Shown: positions 3-45,474 of the stretch, piece after piece | Numbering within the stretch: position 1 is the first letter of the stretch | Layout: every line of letters begins with the position of its first letter | Source of the DNA: a candidate division FCPU426 bacterium | GTDB lineage: Bacteria; Oederibacteriota; JAAXVQ01; JAUVAV01 | Assembly (NCBI GenBank): GCA_030591525.1 | Contig: JAUVAV010000011.1 | Location: forward strand, 1 to 64,000 | Length of the DNA: 64,000 bases | Reading direction: 5' to 3' | Program-made: the position numbers and the translations under genes | Notes under the pieces: generated by a model | Seen by the model: the letters and a program-made list of their open reading frames with translations, nothing else | What the model was told of the DNA's origin: nothing | The model's database searches: none

Positions 3-3000
3 GTTGCCGGGAAGATAGGCAATCACATCACAGTAAGTGAGAACGAAAAGCTGATGATGCTGCCTTCCAGCAATGCAGCGGAAACCGCGTATCAGGTGCA
101 AAAGATAGATGAGATGGTGAAAAACTTTAAACCGGAACTGAAGGGTCATTTTGGTAAAGAGGTTGAGGTTGGGCATGTGGATAAGCAGGTGCCGAATTGG
201 AAACGCGGCGGAGCCATGGAAGCCAAGATGACACATCCGGCAGCTGTGCGGGCCATGGGAGAGTATTTAAAAGCCCGGGGGCTGACGTTTGATTTGATAG
301 CCACAAACAACGGTTCCGGGCATGGGACCGAGTTTGACAAGGAGACGCTGACCCCGGTATCGCAGGTGTTGAAGATTAGTCCATACTTGACAGCCGAACT
401 GCAGGCCGTGGCTGCTGAATTTGGCGCTGACATTGCGCAGCATGGCACCTCGGGAAGCGATGATGCGGAGCTGACGGACTTGTCCAAGGCAGGGGTTATC
501 AAGTTCAACATTGCAACCAATTACCAGCAGCTCATATTGAATGTGCTGGCCTTGGTGGATAGCGGATTGCAAGGCAGAGCGCTGATGGCTGAAGTTATTG
601 CCGACGCGCCGGCCCTGATGAGCGGGCTGCATGAGGGCACGCGGGAGAAGATCCAGAGTCTGGCCAAGACGTTTAAAGCCAATCCCGCGGCAGCCGAAGA
701 AAAAGCGACTGACAGCCTGTTCGTGAAGTTCATGAAGAAGACATTTGCTTGGGGTGTGAAGAAAGGCAAGATCAAGGAGAGCTCGGAAAAGGGCGATATC
801 GGCAAAGTACTGGCCAAGGAGTTTAAGCGGGTATTTGGAGCCATGAATGAGGGTCTGCGCGCACTGGCATTCGGTAAATCAGAAGCTTCCATGGATTTAT
901 CCCGAGCCAAAGTTAAAACCTCAGTCGTCCAGACGGGCGGAGCGGATACGCTAAAAGTAATTGTTACCTTGGCCAGTGGAGCCACGGGTCATTTCGTCGT
1001 CCCGGCGGGAACTTCCACGGGCGAAGATGAGGCCAAGACTGTTCCGGTTCCCGAGTCCATTGAGAATGTGGCTAAAATACACGAAAGAGTAGTTGCAGCA
1101 GGTCTGAGAGCCGATCAAGTTGTGGAAATCGGCCAATTGATTTTGAAAATGCAGGAAGAAGAGGAACTGGGCGCGCAGGCTACTCTGGGTTACCAGATGG
1201 CAGCAGCCTGGGCCGCGGCCAGTGAGATGGGTATAGCGCCTTATGAATTCATTCGCCAACTGGTTCCGGATATCGCGTCCCACGGTGCTCTGAAGACCGT
1301 GATACAGCATAACATCACGAATGGCGGCGAGCACGCGGACAACAGTCTGGATATGCAGGAGTTTATGATTGTTCCGGTGGGTAAAACCATAGCGGACAAT
1401 AATGCAATGTGCCTAAGGATTGATAAAGAACTCGGCGGAATTTATATTGCCCTGGGATTGCAAGCCAAGACGGATGATCAGGGAGTAGGAGAACTGCGCG
1501 GTAAAGAAGGCGGTTATAAAATTCCGAATCTGACTACAGAGAAGCTGCAGGAAATTTATGCTTCCATAGAAAACTATAATATTAACAATCTTGATTTAAA
1601 GCAGCTAAAGCGGGAGGGAGTCGGTGTTCATGAGTTTGTGTTAAATTGTAAGATCGCTGCTATTAAAAACGCGGGGTACACGCCTTCGACATCAAAAGAA
1701 CCAGGCACTGCCTCTCTGGCTTTGGATGCTGCTGCTACTTCCATGTTAGTTAAAGACACGGATGATAAATATCATTACGAAGGCCGTGAGATTTCATCAG
1801 AAAAATTGGTTGAGATCTATGCCGGATGGGTCAAAAAATATCCGATTGACTCGATTGAGGATGGTCTGGGTGAAAATGATTGGGACGGCTGGATGAATTT
1901 GATTGAGAGAGTCGGAGACAAGGTTCTGCTGATCGGTGATGATAATTTGGTCACGCAGGCCGGCCGATTAACTTATTTCATAGAATTGATGGATGGAAAA
2001 GGCTTTATTAAAAACGGCAAAGTGACTAAGAAAATCGGTATTCTGATCAAACTGAATCAAAACGGATTCTTAACCACTGGCTACAATGATCCCAAAGACG
2101 GTTATCTTGGAACCTTGGAAGTCATCCGCTTGGCCAGGAGTTACGGAATCGAAGTAATTGTCTCACACCGGTCAAAAGAAGCTGAACCTGAAGAAAATGA
2201 AGTATCCATTGCTGAACTGGCGGCCGGGGTTAATGCCTATGCTTTAAAGTCGGGTGATTTTGTTCAAAAAATCCGTGCGGTCAAAGAAGCGCGATTGGCA
2301 GCGATTGATAAAGAAATACGACAAAAAATGGAAACAACCGGCGGCGGTCACATAATTATGAGTTCATTATTAGCCCCCGCGCTGGGACTGGGAGCAGTGC
2401 TTGGTTTAATTGACATAGTTTCCGGCCAGCCGACCACCGGTCAGGTGGCAACGGCAGCGCCTGAGTTGACGGAAATTCTGACCAGTACTGGGATAGTGCC
2501 TGCGATTTTGGGGCTGGTGGTTGTGCTCGGAATTACGTCGGCAGTTTGGCTTAGAAGCAAGCTGCGACCCGCGGCAACAGCAACTTTGGAAGCGGAGCCA
2601 GTGTCATCCCAAACTGCGCCAACAACAGAAACTTTACCGACGCTGGATACCGAAGGTCTTATTGCCGGTACTCTGGGAGTGAATGAGCCATATATGATAG
2701 AGATTTGGGGAGGCTTTAAGTTCTTACATGGTGTGCATGGCGACATGATAAAACTGGGTGCTTGGGTGATGAATCGTCTGACATCTGCAAGAACAGTTAA
2801 TATCGCCGCCGCAAATAATAACACGGGAATTAGGTCCTTGCTGGCCAGGGCTCTCATGGAGAAAACGAAAGAGTTCAACTATGCCGAGGGTATCTCTTTG
2901 GGTGTGAGTGCAAAGTTGCAGGGGAGTTATACGACGAATGATTTTAAAGGCATCGAAACCATCGGAATATCGGCATCTGTACTGGCCATATTAGAACAGG

Positions 3001-4679
3001 GACGGGGAACAGGAAGGATAGCAGGATTGAAATACCTGGTGGCTGAGGCTCTATTGATCCATACAGTGAAGTATCAAGTTGTGGATTATAACCGGACGGT
3101 GCGCGCGCGTGAGGGTATGGCGGCGGAGTTTGTGACACAGACTGCCGATGATCTACAGGCAATCAATGCTGCGGCTATAAATGCACTTTCAGCTACTCGC
3201 TTGAGTCCTGAAGTATTGGCAAAGGCAGAAGACGGCGCAGTGACATTTACGCCGGCTATGCTGGTGGAAGCTATTACAGCCCTTACGCCGGATCGTTCCG
3301 GTCTGCAGGAAAAGGTACAGAGCGCGATCAACGAGGCACTGGAAACCGGAGCAGGGCTCGAAATGCAGGGCTTGCTGGAGGCATTGATGAGCGAAGAGGC
3401 TCAGAGTGTGCCAGAGCTAAAAGTTTTGGCAAGCCTGCGAGAAGATATGACAACGCCTGCCGAGAGCGCGACACTCTTGTCATCCTTGCTTGGCATGCTT
3501 AAAGGCCAAAGCGTGGACATGGCGGCTGGGAAAACTGATGAGAGCATCAAAACTGTCAATGTTATTGGCGGAATATCAGAGGCGACAGCAGATATTATGC
3601 TGAAAATGATCGAGAATGCGAGAGATGCCGGAGCCGACACGAAGATATTGGACGCCTTGCAGAAAGCAGTCAAGGCTTCGCAGGGTCAGACTGCGGATAG
3701 TATGGCTGCCTTGCCCATAGATGCAGGCCGGTTATTGGCAAGCATTATCGAGCAGGCGAGGACGCAAACCGCGGCTGATTCATACATCGGTGAAAATGCC
3801 CAGGGATTAAAATTGCATGTCGCTGGCATTGGCTGGCGGACGGTCGAGATTATAGAAGGCGTAAACGTACAAGTGCCCGTATTAGCAGCGGCCAAGACCA
3901 AACTGCAGCAAGTAAATATTGCCGAAATGTTTGCTCAGGCTGAGCAGGGTGTGGTTTCAGAAGGTGTGCAGCTCAGCGTGTTTAGTCAGGCCGCAGCTCT
4001 GCCGGAGCAGATTACAGATTCAACCCTAACGCAAACCCTAACGCAAAAGCTATGGTCTGCGGGGCTGGCAAGCTTGAGCCGGGTCAGTATACTGCCGCAG
4101 ACGGCGCGAAGTTACCTTGGATATAGAGCAATGAGGTTGGATCCGGCCGGCCAGCTGTGGAAAGTCATCGAAACCCTCCAGAGCGAGCCGGACCTGATGA
4201 AGGCGGGTATGGTGCAAGATTTGGCTGGAATTAATAGCAAAGCCGACGCGCTGGAATTCCTCAATAAGAATACCGCGCTGTCCATTGCACTGCGTCAGAT
4301 GTTCACAGCGGCTGATGCGAAAGCGTTTTACGTTGCGCAGGCCAAGGTAGGGAGTTGCCTGACCAACCGTATCAGCCCGGCGTGGGTGGGAATCACAGCC
4401 GCGCCAGTGGCTGCGGAACCTGCCATGGATATGCTCAACGCTCAGTTCTTCACCAAGTTCTTGAGTGCTTTGGGCCTGAAGATGATGGCCATCGGGCATG
4501 TGGATGCCACTGGTATGAAGCTCGAGCTGCCGCAATCCATGATTGACGTGATTGGATTCAAGGCCAAGGTTGGTACCTTGGTGGATAAGTGGGAGAAATT
4601 GCCAACCACCATCTACTATCATGCACTCCAGATGTTGCTGAGAAACGGTCTGCGGATGTCAGTAGAAGTTGCGGCGTAA
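3..4679 (+). CDS. Giant fusion protein: class II fructose-bisphosphate aldolase + enolase + membrane segments (5' partial)
   Basis: The frame is open to the window edge, so the N-terminus is missing; 1558 residues are visible, counted here from position 3. Residues 1-235 look like the C-terminal half of a class II fructose-bisphosphate aldolase: NNGSGHGTEFDK resembles the metal-binding histidine loop, and AQHGTSG followed by KFNIAT the phosphate-binding strands. Residues about 297-770 are a divergent enolase that keeps the loop GTSTGEDEA, NGGEHADNSLDMQEF, the acid KEGGYKIPN, metal ligands in SLALDAAA, SIEDGL and GDDNLVT, the catalytic lysine in ILIKLNQ, and SHRSKEAE. Two hydrophobic segments follow (about 783-803 and 829-850), then an Ala-rich domain of about 650 residues that I do not recognise. 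Both halves are glycolytic, but joining them to membrane segments is odd. Motif retention argues for activity in enolase; the aldolase cannot be judged without its N-terminus. Domain calls are firm, cellular role unknown. Confidence 0.85.
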   Translation, partial: VAGKIGNHITVSENEKLMMLPSSNAAETAYQVQKIDEMVKNFKPELKGHFGKEVEVGHVDKQVPNWKRGGAMEAKMTHPAAVRAMGEYLKARGLTFDLIATNNGSGHGTEFDKETLTPVSQVLKISPYLTAELQAVAAEFGADIAQHGTSGSDDAELTDLSKAGVIKFNIATNYQQLILNVLALVDSGLQGRALMAEVIADAPALMSGLHEGTREKIQSLAKTFKANPAAAEEKATDSLFVKFMKKTFAWGVKKGKIKESSEKGDIGKVLAKEFKRVFGAMNEGLRALAFGKSEASMDLSRAKVKTSVVQTGGADTLKVIVTLASGATGHFVVPAGTSTGEDEAKTVPVPESIENVAKIHERVVAAGLRADQVVEIGQLILKMQEEEELGAQATLGYQMAAAWAAASEMGIAPYEFIRQLVPDIASHGALKTVIQHNITNGGEHADNSLDMQEFMIVPVGKTIADNNAMCLRIDKELGGIYIALGLQAKTDDQGVGELRGKEGGYKIPNLTTEKLQEIYASIENYNINNLDLKQLKREGVGVHEFVLNCKIAAIKNAGYTPSTSKEPGTASLALDAAATSMLVKDTDDKYHYEGREISSEKLVEIYAGWVKKYPIDSIEDGLGENDWDGWMNLIERVGDKVLLIGDDNLVTQAGRLTYFIELMDGKGFIKNGKVTKKIGILIKLNQNGFLTTGYNDPKDGYLGTLEVIRLARSYGIEVIVSHRSKEAEPEENEVSIAELAAGVNAYALKSGDFVQKIRAVKEARLAAIDKEIRQKMETTGGGHIIMSSLLAPALGLGAVLGLIDIVSGQPTTGQVATAAPELTEILTSTGIVPAILGLVVVLGITSAVWLRSKLRPAATATLEAEPVSSQTAPTTETLPTLDTEGLIAGTLGVNEPYMIEIWGGFKFLHGVHGDMIKLGAWVMNRLTSARTVNIAAANNNTGIRSLLARALMEKTKEFNYAEGISLGVSAKLQGSYTTNDFKGIETIGISASVLAILEQGRGTGRIAGLKYLVAEALLIHTVKYQVVDYNRTVRAREGMAAEFVTQTADDLQAINAAAINALSATRLSPEVLAKAEDGAVTFTPAMLVEAITALTPDRSGLQEKVQSAINEALETGAGLEMQGLLEALMSEEAQSVPELKVLASLREDMTTPAESATLLSSLLGMLKGQSVDMAAGKTDESIKTVNVIGGISEATADIMLKMIENARDAGADTKILDALQKAVKASQGQTADSMAALPIDAGRLLASIIEQARTQTAADSYIGENAQGLKLHVAGIGWRTVEIIEGVNVQVPVLAAAKTKLQQVNIAEMFAQAEQGVVSEGVQLSVFSQAAALPEQITDSTLTQTLTQKLWSAGLASLSRVSILPQTARSYLGYRAMRLDPAGQLWKVIETLQSEPDLMKAGMVQDLAGINSKADALEFLNKNTALSIALRQMFTAADAKAFYVAQAKVGSCLTNRISPAWVGITAAPVAAEPAMDMLNAQFFTKFLSALGLKMMAIGHVDATGMKLELPQSMIDVIGFKAKVGTLVDKWEKLPTTIYYHALQMLLRNGLRMSVEVAA

Positions 4680-4698
4680 TTACTCAAGGCCACGGCGG

Positions 4699-4726
4699 GT
4701 AGGGGCGACGCATGCGTCGCCCCTAC
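4699..4726. repeat. 28-bp perfect palindrome, core GACGCATGCGTC
   Basis: Constant arm GTAGGGGC, a 12-bp self-complementary core, then GCCCCTAC. It lies 19 bp after the stop of the giant fusion gene. Same arms, with other cores, recur at 7856, 9750, 27434, 30759 and 37233. Confidence 0.9.
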
Positions 4727-4752
4727 AATAAATTCAAAATACCTTTGCATTT

Positions 4753-5100
4753 GTAGGGGCAACCCCCTGTGGTTGCCCATCTGTGTGACGCAAAATTCCC
4801 GGGCGGGTTTGGAATCCGCCCCTACGAAAACCAACATACCTAATTTATGCAAACCGTAGGGGCAACCCCCAGTGGTTGCCCATCCGTGTGACGCAAAATC
4901 CCCAGGCGGGCACGGGGGCCCGCCCCTACAAAAATCCAACCTACCTAATTTATGCAACCGTAGGGGCCGGCTTCCATAGCTGGCCCTTGGATTTAAAACC
5001 ACGCAAATCATACAAAGGGCGGGTTTGGAACCCGCCCCTACGAAAACTAACATACCTAATTTATGCAAACCGTAGGGGCAACCCCCTGTGGTTGCCCATC
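4753..5100. repeat. Tandem array of two-hairpin GTAGGGGC elements
   Basis: GTAGGGGC begins at 4753, 4856, 4960 and 5072, giving units of 103, 104 and 112 bp plus a final half unit. Each full unit has a first hairpin (mostly GGGGCAACC paired with GGTTGCCC), a short linker containing GTGACGCAAAAT or a variant, a second hairpin ending GCCCCTAC, and a spacer with ACCTAATTTATGCAA. The units differ mainly inside the hairpins. The array fills most of the gap between 4680 and 5192; I see no gene in it. Confidence 0.85.
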
Positions 5101-5123
5101 CCCCCCCTCAACATAAAAAAATA

Positions 5124-9110: not shown

Positions 9111-9139
9111 TTGACATATCAGATTGATTATCGTATACT
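9111..9139 (+). promoter_or_regulatory. vapBC promoter with direct-repeat operator; leaderless transcript predicted
   Basis: TTGACA at 9111-9116, 17-bp spacer, TATACT at 9134-9139. The predicted start of transcription is at or next to the ATG at 9147, so the message should have almost no leader. TATCGTAT occurs at 9129-9136 and again at 9141-9148, flanking the -10, a good candidate for autoregulatory antitoxin binding. Confidence 0.75.
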
Positions 9140-9146
9140 TTATCGT

Positions 9147-9362
9147 ATGAAAGTGACGGCCCTGATCCCTAATAAAATAGTAAATGAAGTGAGGCAATAT
9201 GCGGGCGGTAGTACTTTGACCGAAAGCCTTATTGTTGCTCTGAAAGAATGGCTGGCGCTTAAAAAGATAATTGCCTTAAATCGGTCGATTGAGAAGCTGC
9301 CCCTTCAATTTAACGAAGAAACTTCCGCTTATAAGATACGCTTGCATAATCGTAAAAGATGA
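9147..9362 (+). CDS. vapB: VapB-type antitoxin
   Basis: A 71-residue protein that overlaps the PIN-domain toxin gene by four bases (ATGA), the usual antitoxin-toxin coupling. The N-terminal part MKVTALIPNKIVNEVRQYA looks like a ribbon-helix-helix DNA-binding segment of the kind found in VapB antitoxins whose partner is a VapC; the C-terminal part ending in KIRLHNRKR would wrap the toxin. A longer reading frame begins at 9111, but that codon lies inside the -35 box, so ATG 9147 is chosen. The TATCGTAT direct repeat around the -10 box is a probable operator. Function is inferred from position, size and fold-like pattern. Confidence 0.8.
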   Translation: MKVTALIPNKIVNEVRQYAGGSTLTESLIVALKEWLALKKIIALNRSIEKLPLQFNEETSAYKIRLHNRKR

Positions 9363-9736
9363 TAATCCTGGATACATCCGTTTGGATAGAATTTCTGAAA
9401 GGCAAAAGATCGTATTTTACAGCAATAAAAGCGCTATTGGAAAATCGACAAATATTGGCAATAGAGTGTGTTTTTGGCGAGTTATTGCAAGGCGCAAAAA
9501 ATAAAAGGGAGCGTGAAACAATTGTCCTTTATTGGGATAACCTGCCCAAGGTTAATGATGAGGAACTTTGGATTGAAGCTGGTAAATATTCTTTCGCGCA
9601 TAGGCTGATTTCTAAAGGCGTAGGGTTGATAGATTGCGTGATTATTGTTGCCGCGCGCCGGGAAAATGCGCGGATTTGGTCAATTGATAAAAAGCTTAAT
9701 TTCTTGCTGAAAAAAGAAGAAAAGTACGTTATATAG
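9359..9736 (+). CDS. vapC: VapC-type PIN-domain ribonuclease toxin
   Basis: 125 residues, typical PIN-domain length. The acidic metal-binding set is visible: Asp5 in LDTSVWIEF, Glu in ECVFGELLQG, Asp in GLIDCVIIVAA and Asp in SIDKKLN. Such toxins cleave specific RNAs when the antitoxin is degraded. The start overlaps the antitoxin stop, so both come from the promoter at 9111. The gene ends 13 bp before a 28-bp palindrome. The target RNA is unknown. Confidence 0.92.
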   Translation: MIILDTSVWIEFLKGKRSYFTAIKALLENRQILAIECVFGELLQGAKNKRERETIVLYWDNLPKVNDEELWIEAGKYSFAHRLISKGVGLIDCVIIVAARRENARIWSIDKKLNFLLKKEEKYVI

Positions 9737-40861: not shown

Positions 40862-40938
40862 ATAACAAGTGCCAAAAGCTATATTTTAAAGATCATCTAA
40901 TCAATTTTATCAATCCTAAATTTATATGAAAGAAAATT

Positions 40939-43900
40939 ATGCAAAAATTCAAATCTTTTTTACCAATATCAGTTCAGCCCGGCTCTCCAGGCCTGCGCTG
41001 GACAAAAATAACCGCTCTGCTGCTGGCAATCACCTTGGTCTTTCCTCATTTGGCATGGGCTTTTGAATATATTAATCTTTCCAACCCTAAGGTAATGATT
41101 TTTAATAACCGGCCGGTTGAGATTCCTAAAAAAATCGGCAAAATAAGCAGGACTTTTCATGGCCAGGACCAATTGGTTATTCATATTGAGGACCTGCACT
41201 GTAATTACGAAATTCAATCCAATATAGCTAAAATCATTGATCACCTGGCCCGTTGGCATACCCTCCGGCTGGTAACTATGGAAGGAGCCGACAAGCCGGT
41301 CAATGTAGCCAAGTTGTCTGCTTTTCCCATAGAGGCCGTGAAAAAAGAGGTTGGAGAGTATTTTATTAAACAGGGAAAAATATCCGGGGCCGAGTTTTAT
41401 GCGGCTACGGGACGCTATCCTATTGACCTGGAAGGAATAGAGAATCCTGAGCATTACCGGCAAGGACGCGAATTGGTCTCAGGCTTTCTTAATAATGAAA
41501 GTCAGGGATATGTGCATGATTTAAGAGACATGCTGGAGGAGTTAAAGAAATGCATCTATAGTCCGGAATTATTTAAATTTGACGCGAAAAAGACCGCCTG
41601 GCGTGAGGGCCGTATTTCCAGCTTGAAATACTGCATCTTTTTAAAGCAACGCGCTGTTCGCTCCGGTCTGAAAGGTTTTCCACTAATCAAACGCTATGTA
41701 TCCCGGGGAGAGGAAGTACTCTGGCCGGGACTGGACCCGGATCAGCTTTACCAGGAGATTGAGCGTCTGGACGGAATTCTGCGCGCAGGGCTTTACACCA
41801 GGACAGAGCAGCGCGAACTCGATCAGCACCAGCGCCGGCTGGACATAATGGAGAAACTTTTAAATATCTCTGCCACGCCCGTTGAATTGGCCGAGTATCA
41901 AGAACATGCCCCGGCCTTTCAAATCAAGAATTTTCAGGATTTTATCCAGGGTTATGCGGCAGGTAAAAAATATCCCTGGGATCCCGGTATTTACGGGTTG
42001 GACCGCTGGCTCGAAAAAGCCCGGGCTTTTTATGCGAATGCCGATCAGCGCAGCCTGGATTTTATAACAAATCTTCTCGCCCGCATGGAGCATTACCAGG
42101 CCCAAATAGCGGTCCTGATAACCGGCGGTTATCATACCCCAATGGTGTTGGAAGAGCTTGAGCAGCGCAATATTTCCTTTATTTCAGTACAACCCGGTTT
42201 AACCCGCCAGGATTTAGTTAATCCCTATTTTTCACTGTTAAGAGAGCAACGTACGCCGCTGGAGAAGCTGCTGAGCCAGGATCAAAAGGTTATAGCCCTG
42301 GAACCCTTTTTTGCGCAATGGGATAAAATCAGGATCAAGGCGGATCAGCTTCCTGCGGAAGTTCGCTTGGGTTATGACCTGTTGGAAATGACCTTAAAAC
42401 TGGATTATATTCATTACTTGCAGGAAAAAGGAGTTGCCGGACTGGAAGGCCTGCAAGCCGAGTATAGGCAAGAGATTGCGGAATACGAGAAAAACAGCCA
42501 ACGGATCAAGCTGAATTTAAACCGCGTCTTGGCCGGGGACCGGTTTTTTGCCGTGCCCTTTGAGGGAGCATCCTATTTTGCCGTGCTGAGTTTGCCGGGA
42601 CAGAGCCCGGTGTCCGGCGCTTTCCAGACCATGCTGATCAAGGATGATCTTGAATTAACTTTTTACCATAAGCCAGAGTGGAATGTCATGGCCGAAAAAA
42701 TTAAAGACCAGCCGATTTATGATGCCTCCCACGCCCTGGTCCGCAGACGTCTTCTCCAGGCTGTGTGCCCGGGAGGGGAGCCTGTGATTTTTGCCGGGGA
42801 ATGGCTTGCGCCCCGCATTCTAAATTGGATGAAGCGCCGGTCGCAACAGGGGAAAATATTACCGGCCAAAATAGAGCGGACATTGACCAATCCGGCCGGC
42901 GGATTGGTCATTAAATTAGGACTGGGATTAGGCCGGGCGATCTTTGGGAATCAGAAAATTATGCAGCAGCTTATTTTATTCTTTCCGGTTTTGTCGGCTA
43001 ATGACAATAAAACCGGAAACCGGATGGCCAAGAAGACCGGCGAAGAGGAAAATATTGCTATTATTCAAGAAACCGCAGCTTATCGGCTTTTGGAGACACT
43101 GGGGCTTTTAGCGATAGAGAACAACCCGGCAGTAGTAATTGAAGAGACTGTGAAATATCCTGAATATACTGTCCGCAGGATCCGAATTCCTGAACGTGCA
43201 GATACTACAAAGCCTCCGCGGGGATTGGAAATTCTCCAGAATGAAATAGCCGATATTGTTCGGTTTGACCTTTTGTATAATAGGGAAAATCAACTTATTG
43301 CGATATTTCCAGCCTTGCCCCTTGAGACAAATTCGAAATCAACCCACATAGCTTATAATGGTATAATAAAATATTTTGATTTGGGAGAATACTATTTAAA
43401 GGATTCTGAGATAACTGTTCCGGAAATAGAAGGCAAGTGGGAAAAGATGTACGCTGAAAGCGAGTCGAATATCCGGCTGATTAAAAGCTATCTTAAGCTT
43501 GTACTAGGCAAGAAAGCCTCGTCAGCCCTTATGATTGATTGTGAGTGTGGAAAGCGACCTTATGCCTATATATCAGTGGATCGGGAAACTGGAAAATGGC
43601 AAGCATATGAAGTGGGAATGCAATACAAAAAGCACCCGGATGTAAAGCCGCATCTAAATAGAGAAGAAATTATTATTCCGGTTTATCCGACAGTTTATTC
43701 GCCGGGTAATCCTGTGGCCGATGTTGATGATGGATATTATAACTATATTTATAAGCATATGGGATTAAGGTTGGACCATAAAGTCATGGTAGTAGGACCG
43801 GGTTCAGGGTCGGATACATGGACGATTTCCCGGAAGACCGGGGGGAAGGTCTGGGCAGTGGGGATTAATCCTTTAGAGGTTGCGAATACGGTTCAAACCG

Positions 43901-45474
43901 CCGTGATAGGCGGATTTGAAGTGGACGCTGTAGTTGGTAATAATATTATCGATGAAATGGGCCATTCCGTATTTCCCGGCCAAAAATTCAACCGGATTGT
44001 TTGGTGTATGCCTCATTTTAGTCACCGGAGTTTGGGTTTTAGCGGACGCCATCCCTCGTTTTCCGAGTTTTGGGATCCTGATTTTGAAGGAGAGGTTTTA
44101 AAGCGATTTGTAAAAGGTTTGCCATTATTACTTGAACCGGACGGTTATGCCATTATCTGGAATAAAAATATCCCCGATACCATGCTGCAATCTTTCGAAG
44201 GAGTGAAGATCGAAAAAGTGGAGAGCATGGTTTATAAGATTATTCTAACCGAACCCGCATCAGCAAGCGTCAACAGACCGCGGATCCATCCTGGAATGTT
44301 TAACCTGCCTTTTTATATCCGGCATTTAAAAATTTTGCAGCACTGGCGTCTGCCGCGCGCGCTTGGGATGTTTATCCTGGCTAGTGGATGGCTGCTGGTC
44401 CAGACGGCGTGCCGAGCCTTTCCCCGGCTGAAAATTTCCGGAACGGATAAGGACTTGGACCCTGATTCGAGTAAGGAACTTAATTTAATGAAGCTCCGCC
44501 ACGGCATGCCTGGAGTCCGTTTCCGGACGCTTTCCGGAAGATCATGGTGGAAAATATGGGGAATGATTACAGGGCTTTACCGTGAGAATGAACAGACTCC
44601 GGCTACTATTTACGCATACCCGCCCTGGCTTAAGCTTATCCAGGCGCCTGAACTAAAAGCTAAGGGTTCTCTGGAATCCAGATTGGCCGGATGGCGTTAT
44701 GCCTTGACCAGGCGTCTGCTTGATAATTGTTTGGCTTACCACAGGGTGGATTATCTCAATTCCGGGACCGGATTCTGGGAGCGGAACCTGGATAAATTAT
44801 TCAGGCGTGATATTCCCGCCTTGGCAAGACACACTCTTGCCAGGCACGAGATTCCGGGATTCGGCACGAGGATGGTGCGCCTGGCAGCAGTGAAATTACC
44901 CTGGCTGGCGGGATTCGGGAAGTCCCTGCGTTTATCTATACTCAAAGCGTATCCGGACTGGGAAATTAAAAAAATACTCGAGAGCATTAAGGCAGGATAT
45001 CCGAAAGGCATGACGCCGAACTGCCTGGATGGTCTGGCCGGACAATTCAACCGCCCCGAATCCGGGGTTTACCAGGCCTACCAGGATATGGTCCGGGCAT
45101 CGCCCAAAAAGTTTACGCAGGAACAAACGGAATTTTTCAGACAACTAAGAAACTTCATGCTGCCGAATCAGACCGATGTTCCGGAGCGAATGCCGGATAA
45201 TATCGCAATTTACCTGGAATTGATTTCCCGCCTGGATTTTGGTCCGTCATTTGAAATCGGGCGCTGGTCTCTACATGACCAAGTACCTGGATATTTAAAA
45301 GGCCGGATAATATCCTTGCCCATAAGCATGAAAAACAGCCCGGGAGCAAGAGAACTCATAGTGATTATCAGCATGCTTCGCAGGTTTCAACCCTGGATAA
45401 TCTTAAATAATAAAACTATGGAAGAGATACTCTATCCCCGCAATACTCCCTGTATCTTTGAACAGGCTGCGTAA
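40939..45474 (+). CDS. Giant secreted chimera with TraB/ChaN-like N-terminal and methyltransferase-like central domains
   Basis: 1511 residues. Signal peptide about 20-42 (ALLLAITLVFPHLAWA). Residues about 60-440: QLVIHIEDLHCNYEIQSNIA, TMEGAD and ITGGYHTPMVLEEL form a pattern like TraB/PrgY or ChaN-type proteins, but I cannot fix the family. Residues about 945-1110 have a Rossmann methyltransferase look: KVMVVGPGSGSDTW (motif I), VWAVGINPLEV and FNRIVWCMPH. A hydrophobic segment near 1137-1155 (ALGMFILASGWLLVQTACRA) could be a membrane helix. The last 350 residues are unrecognised. It has its own strong promoter. Secretion of a SAM-type fold is odd, since SAM is not expected outside the cytoplasm, so the fold may be non-catalytic. 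Proteins with this N-terminal pattern seem typical of Omnitrophota. Confidence 0.7.
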   Translation: MQKFKSFLPISVQPGSPGLRWTKITALLLAITLVFPHLAWAFEYINLSNPKVMIFNNRPVEIPKKIGKISRTFHGQDQLVIHIEDLHCNYEIQSNIAKIIDHLARWHTLRLVTMEGADKPVNVAKLSAFPIEAVKKEVGEYFIKQGKISGAEFYAATGRYPIDLEGIENPEHYRQGRELVSGFLNNESQGYVHDLRDMLEELKKCIYSPELFKFDAKKTAWREGRISSLKYCIFLKQRAVRSGLKGFPLIKRYVSRGEEVLWPGLDPDQLYQEIERLDGILRAGLYTRTEQRELDQHQRRLDIMEKLLNISATPVELAEYQEHAPAFQIKNFQDFIQGYAAGKKYPWDPGIYGLDRWLEKARAFYANADQRSLDFITNLLARMEHYQAQIAVLITGGYHTPMVLEELEQRNISFISVQPGLTRQDLVNPYFSLLREQRTPLEKLLSQDQKVIALEPFFAQWDKIRIKADQLPAEVRLGYDLLEMTLKLDYIHYLQEKGVAGLEGLQAEYRQEIAEYEKNSQRIKLNLNRVLAGDRFFAVPFEGASYFAVLSLPGQSPVSGAFQTMLIKDDLELTFYHKPEWNVMAEKIKDQPIYDASHALVRRRLLQAVCPGGEPVIFAGEWLAPRILNWMKRRSQQGKILPAKIERTLTNPAGGLVIKLGLGLGRAIFGNQKIMQQLILFFPVLSANDNKTGNRMAKKTGEEENIAIIQETAAYRLLETLGLLAIENNPAVVIEETVKYPEYTVRRIRIPERADTTKPPRGLEILQNEIADIVRFDLLYNRENQLIAIFPALPLETNSKSTHIAYNGIIKYFDLGEYYLKDSEITVPEIEGKWEKMYAESESNIRLIKSYLKLVLGKKASSALMIDCECGKRPYAYISVDRETGKWQAYEVGMQYKKHPDVKPHLNREEIIIPVYPTVYSPGNPVADVDDGYYNYIYKHMGLRLDHKVMVVGPGSGSDTWTISRKTGGKVWAVGINPLEVANTVQTAVIGGFEVDAVVGNNIIDEMGHSVFPGQKFNRIVWCMPHFSHRSLGFSGRHPSFSEFWDPDFEGEVLKRFVKGLPLLLEPDGYAIIWNKNIPDTMLQSFEGVKIEKVESMVYKIILTEPASASVNRPRIHPGMFNLPFYIRHLKILQHWRLPRALGMFILASGWLLVQTACRAFPRLKISGTDKDLDPDSSKELNLMKLRHGMPGVRFRTLSGRSWWKIWGMITGLYRENEQTPATIYAYPPWLKLIQAPELKAKGSLESRLAGWRYALTRRLLDNCLAYHRVDYLNSGTGFWERNLDKLFRRDIPALARHTLARHEIPGFGTRMVRLAAVKLPWLAGFGKSLRLSILKAYPDWEIKKILESIKAGYPKGMTPNCLDGLAGQFNRPESGVYQAYQDMVRASPKKFTQEQTEFFRQLRNFMLPNQTDVPERMPDNIAIYLELISRLDFGPSFEIGRWSLHDQVPGYLKGRIISLPISMKNSPGARELIVIISMLRRFQPWIILNNKTMEEILYPRNTPCIFEQAA

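Follow-up and report, generated by a model that had tools for sequence, protein, structure and literature searches.

The window analysed here, 64,000 nucleotides long, comprises bases 1-64000 of contig C81 from a candidate division FCPU426 bacterium (genome of 2.70 Mb in 91 contigs, 96% complete) and opens within a giant open reading frame (ORF) that joins an aldolase to an enolase. The visible, C-terminal part of this ORF (3-4679; forward strand, as for its parts and for the second giant of the window below) spans 1558 codons and is open at its 5' end at base 1 of the contig. Because the contig begins within the aldolase domain, what is visible of this class II fructose-bisphosphate aldolase is its C-terminal part (3-647; Pfam F_bP_aldolase, PF01116, 1.3e-9), which matches above cut-off over residues 53-186 (profile positions 131-245 of 277). 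Zinc-ligand and substrate residues expected in this part were found (His107 and His147 as zinc ligands, plus Asn169), and a PDB sequence search with it gave no match at 0.1. A linker (648-872; AWGVKKGKIKxSS...VLAKEFKRxFGAM), which is conserved in an ORF on contig C84 of metagenome-assembled genome (MAG) G062 and belongs to the giants' aldolase module, leads into a divergent enolase (873-2372; Pfam Enolase_C 6.7e-41, Enolase_N 5.7e-10). There follow the two hydrophobic segments of a hairpin (residues 784-802, 2352-2408, with a K/R-rich left flank; residues 830-848, 2490-2546, seen in hydropathy) and a C-terminal tail module (residues 869-1558; 2607-4679) that ends in ...VEVAA. Beyond the aldolase and both enolase domains, a Pfam scan of the ORF found nothing significant; two enzyme profiles in one uninterrupted frame go far beyond what chance would give. 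An initial annotation, made from the sequence alone, had described an aldolase and an enolase in one membrane-anchored chain, followed by two hydrophobic segments and a long unknown tail. The Pfam matches within the open frame and the hairpin segments bear out the fusion and its anchor; the aldolase holds for its C-terminal part, the rest of the domain lying beyond the contig start, and the 690-residue tail is present but is no orphan, being common to five other giants of the genome.

Both Pfam enolase domains score above their cut-offs (PF00113, 140.9 bits; PF03952, 39.9 bits). With the NCBIfam equivalog eno (TIGR01060) the score is 205.6 bits, below the cut-off of 300, and we therefore call the domain a divergent enolase homologue. 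A residue-by-residue check recovered the catalytic residues named in the initial annotation together with the other main ones: loop Ser338, His444, Glu453, Glu502, Asp575, Glu619, Asp647, Lys683, His722-Arg723 and Lys749 (in yeast numbering, the Ser39 loop, His159, Glu168, Glu211, Asp246, Glu295, Asp320, Lys345, His373 and Lys396). The domain is 54-66% identical to enolases in chains from four other MAGs (see below), as opposed to at most 45% for single-domain enolases, and in a tree the giant enolases group in a single clade apart from every housekeeping enolase, although the root is unsure because of long branches. Adjoining the catalytic glutamate (window 1503-1517), every giant enolase reads GKEGG, and housekeeping enolases read GDEGG.

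The N-terminal module of the giant family (N-module) is not contained in the visible ORF, as this is truncated. Recovery of upstream sequence led to a giant frame on the minus strand of contig C78 (3-12617), which holds an N-terminal 4205 aa, runs off the start of that contig and ends in the first residues of an aldolase. It carries the N-module and membrane segments ahead of its enzyme domains. These are a type II (archaeal-type) glyceraldehyde-3-phosphate dehydrogenase (GAPDH; NCBIfam 6.8e-36, PDB 3.6e-19), which retains the cysteine of SCNTTG and the histidine; a metallophosphoesterase domain; a phosphoglycerate kinase (PGK)-like domain, identified by motifs; two triose-phosphate isomerases (TPIs; Pfam 4.2e-121 for both); and, after these, a decayed TPI-like stretch. 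The "two non-consecutive glycolytic enzymes" of the initial annotation are thus both there, but with GAPDH, PGK-like and TPI domains ahead of them on C78. The motifs of the metallophosphoesterase prompted the suspicion of a class III fructose-bisphosphatase (FBPase), which no profile supported.

The two contig ends can be aligned on the G062 ORF (1513 aa; signal peptide, GlpX, aldolase, TPI), in which the giant-type aldolase is unbroken. The last 67 residues of the C78 frame match its residues 530-593 with 48% identity, and the first 288 residues of the C81 frame match it from residue 855 with 63% identity. The Asp-His zinc motif is present as HADH in the G062 aldolase; here that N-terminal half falls in the assembly gap. 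As the complementary aldolase ends are collinear with the unbroken aldolase, we infer that C78 (minus) probably continues into C81 (plus) as one chain of about 6,000 residues, which would carry most of the mid-glycolytic enzymes. The joined chain would run from an N-terminal transmembrane segment through an extracytoplasmic domain, membrane segments, GAPDH, metallophosphoesterase and divergent PGK to two permuted TPIs, aldolase, enolase, hairpin and tail. Joining C81 to contig C34 instead, where a fourth giant also runs off the contig end, was rejected, with no aldolase and no overlap found.

Both C78 TPIs contain Lys13, His95 and Glu165 (GHSEAR, AYEPRW and GGNWKTY in each), but not in the canonical strand order β1 to β8. 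In all TPI units of C78 and of the chains L053 and L055 from other MAGs, strands 1-2 with the catalytic lysine (GGNWKTY) come after strand 8 and not before strand 3, giving the order β3-β8-β1-β2; the TPI of the G062 ORF has the canonical order. This is a circular permutation and not a misread tandem, because L053 has one single such unit, between phosphofructokinase (PFK) and enolase. In a phmmer comparison with Staphylococcus aureus TPI, query residues 19-202 aligned with chain residues 79-258 and residues 213-249 with 10-47, the second piece weakly. In an AlphaFold model of the permuted TPI (predicted local distance difference test score [pLDDT] 82.9, predicted template-modelling score [pTM] 0.85), helices alternate with eight strands, and the best PDB matches of the model are TPIs (E 3e-17). 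The histidine, glutamate and lysine are retained in five permuted copies, and the ratio of non-synonymous to synonymous substitution rates (dN/dS) between the C78 tandem copies is 0.23 (Nei-Gojobori, 242 codons), indicating purifying selection. The cofactor-independent phosphoglycerate mutase (iPGM) of chain L056 is likewise permuted (query 25-349 on 1ejj 208-509, query 360-595 on 1ejj 5-210); it sits at L056 7666-9468, within an exported-looking chain.

Giant-type enolase was found in independent assemblies of four MAGs named Candidatus Omnitrophota. In L053 (MAG G059), a 16,029 bp contig is a single frame of 5343 codons without a stop, ordered PFK-TPI-enolase-PGK-pyruvate phosphate dikinase (PPDK)-phosphomannomutase (PMM). 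L054 has PGK-enolase; L055 has TPI-TPI-enolase, its enolase being frameshifted in the assembly; and L056 has a signal peptide followed by phosphoenolpyruvate synthase (PPS)-PGK-iPGM-enolase. The G062 chain on contig C84 reads GlpX-aldolase-TPI. Near the end of the G059 PFK-to-PMM chain (G059:C242, L257, residues about 4496-4710) lie phosphoglucose isomerase-like motifs (GIGG, SKSGSTDET, GGRW); an isomerase at this C-terminus was rejected, with motifs only and no profile or PDB match. The genome itself also has separate fba and eno genes: a normal enolase of 428 aa on C78 and a normal class II aldolase of 343 aa on C41. Further normal housekeeping enzymes are PPDK (C14) and TPI and PGK (C56), with an adjoining GAPDH-like ORF. 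Because of these separate enzymes, the giant chain constitutes a second set, dispensable for glycolysis. The initial annotation had held that housekeeping copies combined with lost aldolase residues would undo its claim; the copies exist, but the key C-terminal aldolase residues are kept.

The giant belongs to a paralogue family. Its tail matches the C-termini of five other giants of the genome with 20-27% identity, all ending in ...AA: three in tandem on C34 (4441, 2106 and 2535 aa), one on C10 (5962 aa) and one on C8 (2701 aa). Most occurrences of the tail are in the genus, with few outside it. On C34 of this genome (G000; 15666-48715; L016, L017), four giant-family genes stand in tandem; a gene that by eye resembles a glycogen synthase lies immediately upstream of them. 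The N-module starts with a basic segment and a hydrophobic stretch (...RRxWxKIISxLVSxTFVFPYLTWAFE...) and has the motifs DLHCNYEVQ, VEGAS, LEGIE and GGFHT; the C78 part has both the N-terminal transmembrane segment and this module, which resembles the erythromycin esterase EreA. A profile of it hit this genome 16 times and seven other genomes of the order 8-34 times each, in ORFs of up to 9482 aa, but at 1e-10 it had no match in the phylum's remaining 37 genomes; the module also occurs in three of the four named Omnitrophota MAGs, in ORFs of up to 13298 aa. An AlphaFold model of the module (pLDDT 82.8, pTM 0.79) is closest in the PDB to erythromycin esterases (EreC, E 7e-3, probability 0.96), with a TM-score of 0.22 only. 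The module shares the motifs DLHxN, EG and GGxH with EreA/EreC and ChaN-like proteins, but, unlike the free enzymes, it is an N-terminal module of giants and has no family hit. Sister giants carry PPDK_N (C37), an NDP-sugar nucleotidyltransferase (C91), iPGM_N (C10), a methyltransferase (C34) and an alpha/beta hydrolase (C8), and N-module giants of other members of the order carry PPDK or metallophosphoesterase. The window holds a second family member, of 1514 aa (40930-45471), recognised by the N-module profile and without a Pfam hit. Just downstream of the giant gene (4724-5101) are four copies of an intergenic repeat of about 55 nt (GTAGGGGCAACCCCC..GGTTGCCC), spaced about 105 nt apart, and at 9111-9736 we noted, by eye only, what resembles a VapBC-type toxin-antitoxin pair.

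Hydropathy peaks lie at residues 47-65, 684-757 (two or three segments), 2761-2810 and 3388-3432 of the C78 part and at residues 784-848 of the window part. The loop of the window hairpin has 27 residues, none of them K/R and three D/E. Among the isolated hairpins of the giants examined, flanks average 16% K/R and loops 1%, with this pattern in 17 of 17 (p 1.5e-5; 17/18 and 14/16 under stricter thresholds). By the positive-inside rule, these charges suggest that the large enzyme domains are cytoplasmic. The initial annotation had offered a metabolon scaffold or a surface-displayed moonlighting enzyme; a membrane-tethered metabolon is the better supported of the two, because the charges would place the enzymes on the cytoplasmic face, although signal peptides of the G062 chains speak for display. 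A rival explanation, that the giant is secreted via its N-terminal signal and acts extracellularly, perhaps on metabolites that leak out of prey or host cells, appears unlikely. Such bacteria are suspected predators or epibionts, and a signal-like N-terminal segment is present in every giant with a complete N-terminus; two different G062 polyenzymes share a nearly identical signal (AVAFLLNSVPYPAYGMR) and have no other transmembrane segment. Giant ORFs of Omnitrophota have also been proposed to be predation or adhesion proteins (PMC10066038). Export of all giants, as we at first supposed, was nevertheless made less likely by the hairpin charges, and NAD and the adenine nucleotides required by GAPDH, PGK and PPDK would be unexpected outside the cell.

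Alternatively, the enzyme domains might have been captured for binding or structure, with only the folds being kept. Enolase, GAPDH, TPI, aldolase and PGK are well known to moonlight as adhesins, the genome has housekeeping copies, decay is seen in the PGK-like and the third TPI-like domain, and the giant enolases sit on a long branch with their GDEGG-to-GKEGG change conserved. Retention of all main enolase catalytic residues in distant giants, of the TPI triad in the permuted copies and of the GAPDH cysteine and histidine argues against this explanation, as does the TPI dN/dS, and we consider it unlikely.

We regard it as highly unlikely that the window ORF belongs to one protein and the C78 giant to another, each with a piece of aldolase. 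No overlap was found between the ends of C78 and C81, and a genome search for the missing middle of the aldolase gave nothing; against this, neither frame is closed at its contig edge, their aldolase parts are complementary in the G062 order, and L055 has TPI-TPI-enolase in a single chain. An assembly or binning artefact fusing aldolase to enolase in a chimeric contig, a caveat raised by the initial annotation and by the start of the ORF at a contig end, has a negligible chance of being correct. As far as the visible ORF goes it is refuted, since this type of enolase recurs in comparable chains of four other, independently assembled MAGs, and the N-module and tail families are spread through the genome and its relatives.

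Our best explanation, in which we have moderate confidence as a whole, is that the window ORF forms the C-terminal quarter of a membrane-tethered multi-enzyme chain of about 6,000 residues, an accessory central-carbon set. A transmembrane or signal anchor and the EreA-like N-module, outside the membrane, would be followed by two or three transmembrane segments and then by three enzyme blocks on the cytoplasmic face, linked by hairpins: type II GAPDH, metallophosphoesterase and divergent PGK; the two permuted TPIs, whose tandem may be an intramolecular dimer; and the TPI-like remnant, aldolase and enolase, with a last hairpin and the tail. At least enolase and TPI would be catalytically active, and the metabolon may hand triose phosphates between aldolase, TPI, GAPDH and PGK, with sister giants contributing the PPDK, the iPGM-like domain and the NDP-sugar nucleotidyltransferase. 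The sequences show the domain architecture and its conservation; catalysis, channelling and location are what we infer. GlpX-type FBPase, PPS/PPDK, PMM and nucleotidyltransferase domains among the giants weakly suggest a gluconeogenic direction, from pyruvate to sugar nucleotides that would feed the making of envelope polysaccharide at the membrane. Several observations count against this explanation: the C78 PGK has diverged beyond the reach of Pfam (PDB phmmer 0.09); a stretch estimated by homology at about 260-280 residues is missing from the assembly between C78 and C81; a separate housekeeping set is present; the parity of transmembrane segments between N-module and first block is inconsistent among giants; the G062 cognate chains, with a signal peptide and no further transmembrane segment, would by themselves predict export; and an enolase/TPI giant occurs in one of eight genomes of the order, this one.

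Soluble polypeptides carrying consecutive pathway steps exist in eukaryotes as AROM and CAD, which the giant resembles in this respect, although they serve other pathways and are not homologous. Bifunctional glycolytic fusions are also known, namely PGK-TPI of Thermotoga maritima, likewise bacterial, TPI-GAPDH of stramenopiles and GAPDH-enolase of dinoflagellates, the natural fusions having two enzymes each (PMC3527533). The giant shares with them glycolytic enzymes in one chain, but differs from these soluble two-enzyme fusions in its five to seven enzyme domains, membrane hairpins, extracytoplasmic domain, permuted TPI, length of about 6,000 residues and accompanying housekeeping copies. Omnitrophota giant ORFs are reported to be very long, to have transmembrane helices, to number several per genome and to contain few domains that could be annotated, most of them resembling adhesins (Seymour et al. 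2023, PMC10066038). The giants resemble these in length, transmembrane helices, number per genome and bacterial group, and the passages found in that paper do not mention glycolytic chains, an N-module family or permuted enzymes. A literature search that left out preprints and many subscription papers gave no report of glycolytic chains in Omnitrophota, and we found no description of such a protein, a probable giant membrane-tethered glycolytic multi-enzyme chain.

Whether glycolytic enzymes form an organised metabolon is an old question, and single chains make channelling directly testable. The natural permuted TPI and iPGM would offer protein-folding research counterparts of engineered permutants. 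Most of the glycolytic pathway seems to have been welded into membrane-linked chains in several lineages. The chains also provide a first clue to what some of the enigmatic giants in this group of bacteria do. On the likeliest reading, the chain of the present organism is an extra enzyme set on the inner membrane face, for local flux. We tentatively propose that the lineage may run, on a few giants and apart from the soluble pathway, a parallel membrane-tethered glycolytic/gluconeogenic metabolon with permuted TPI and iPGM.
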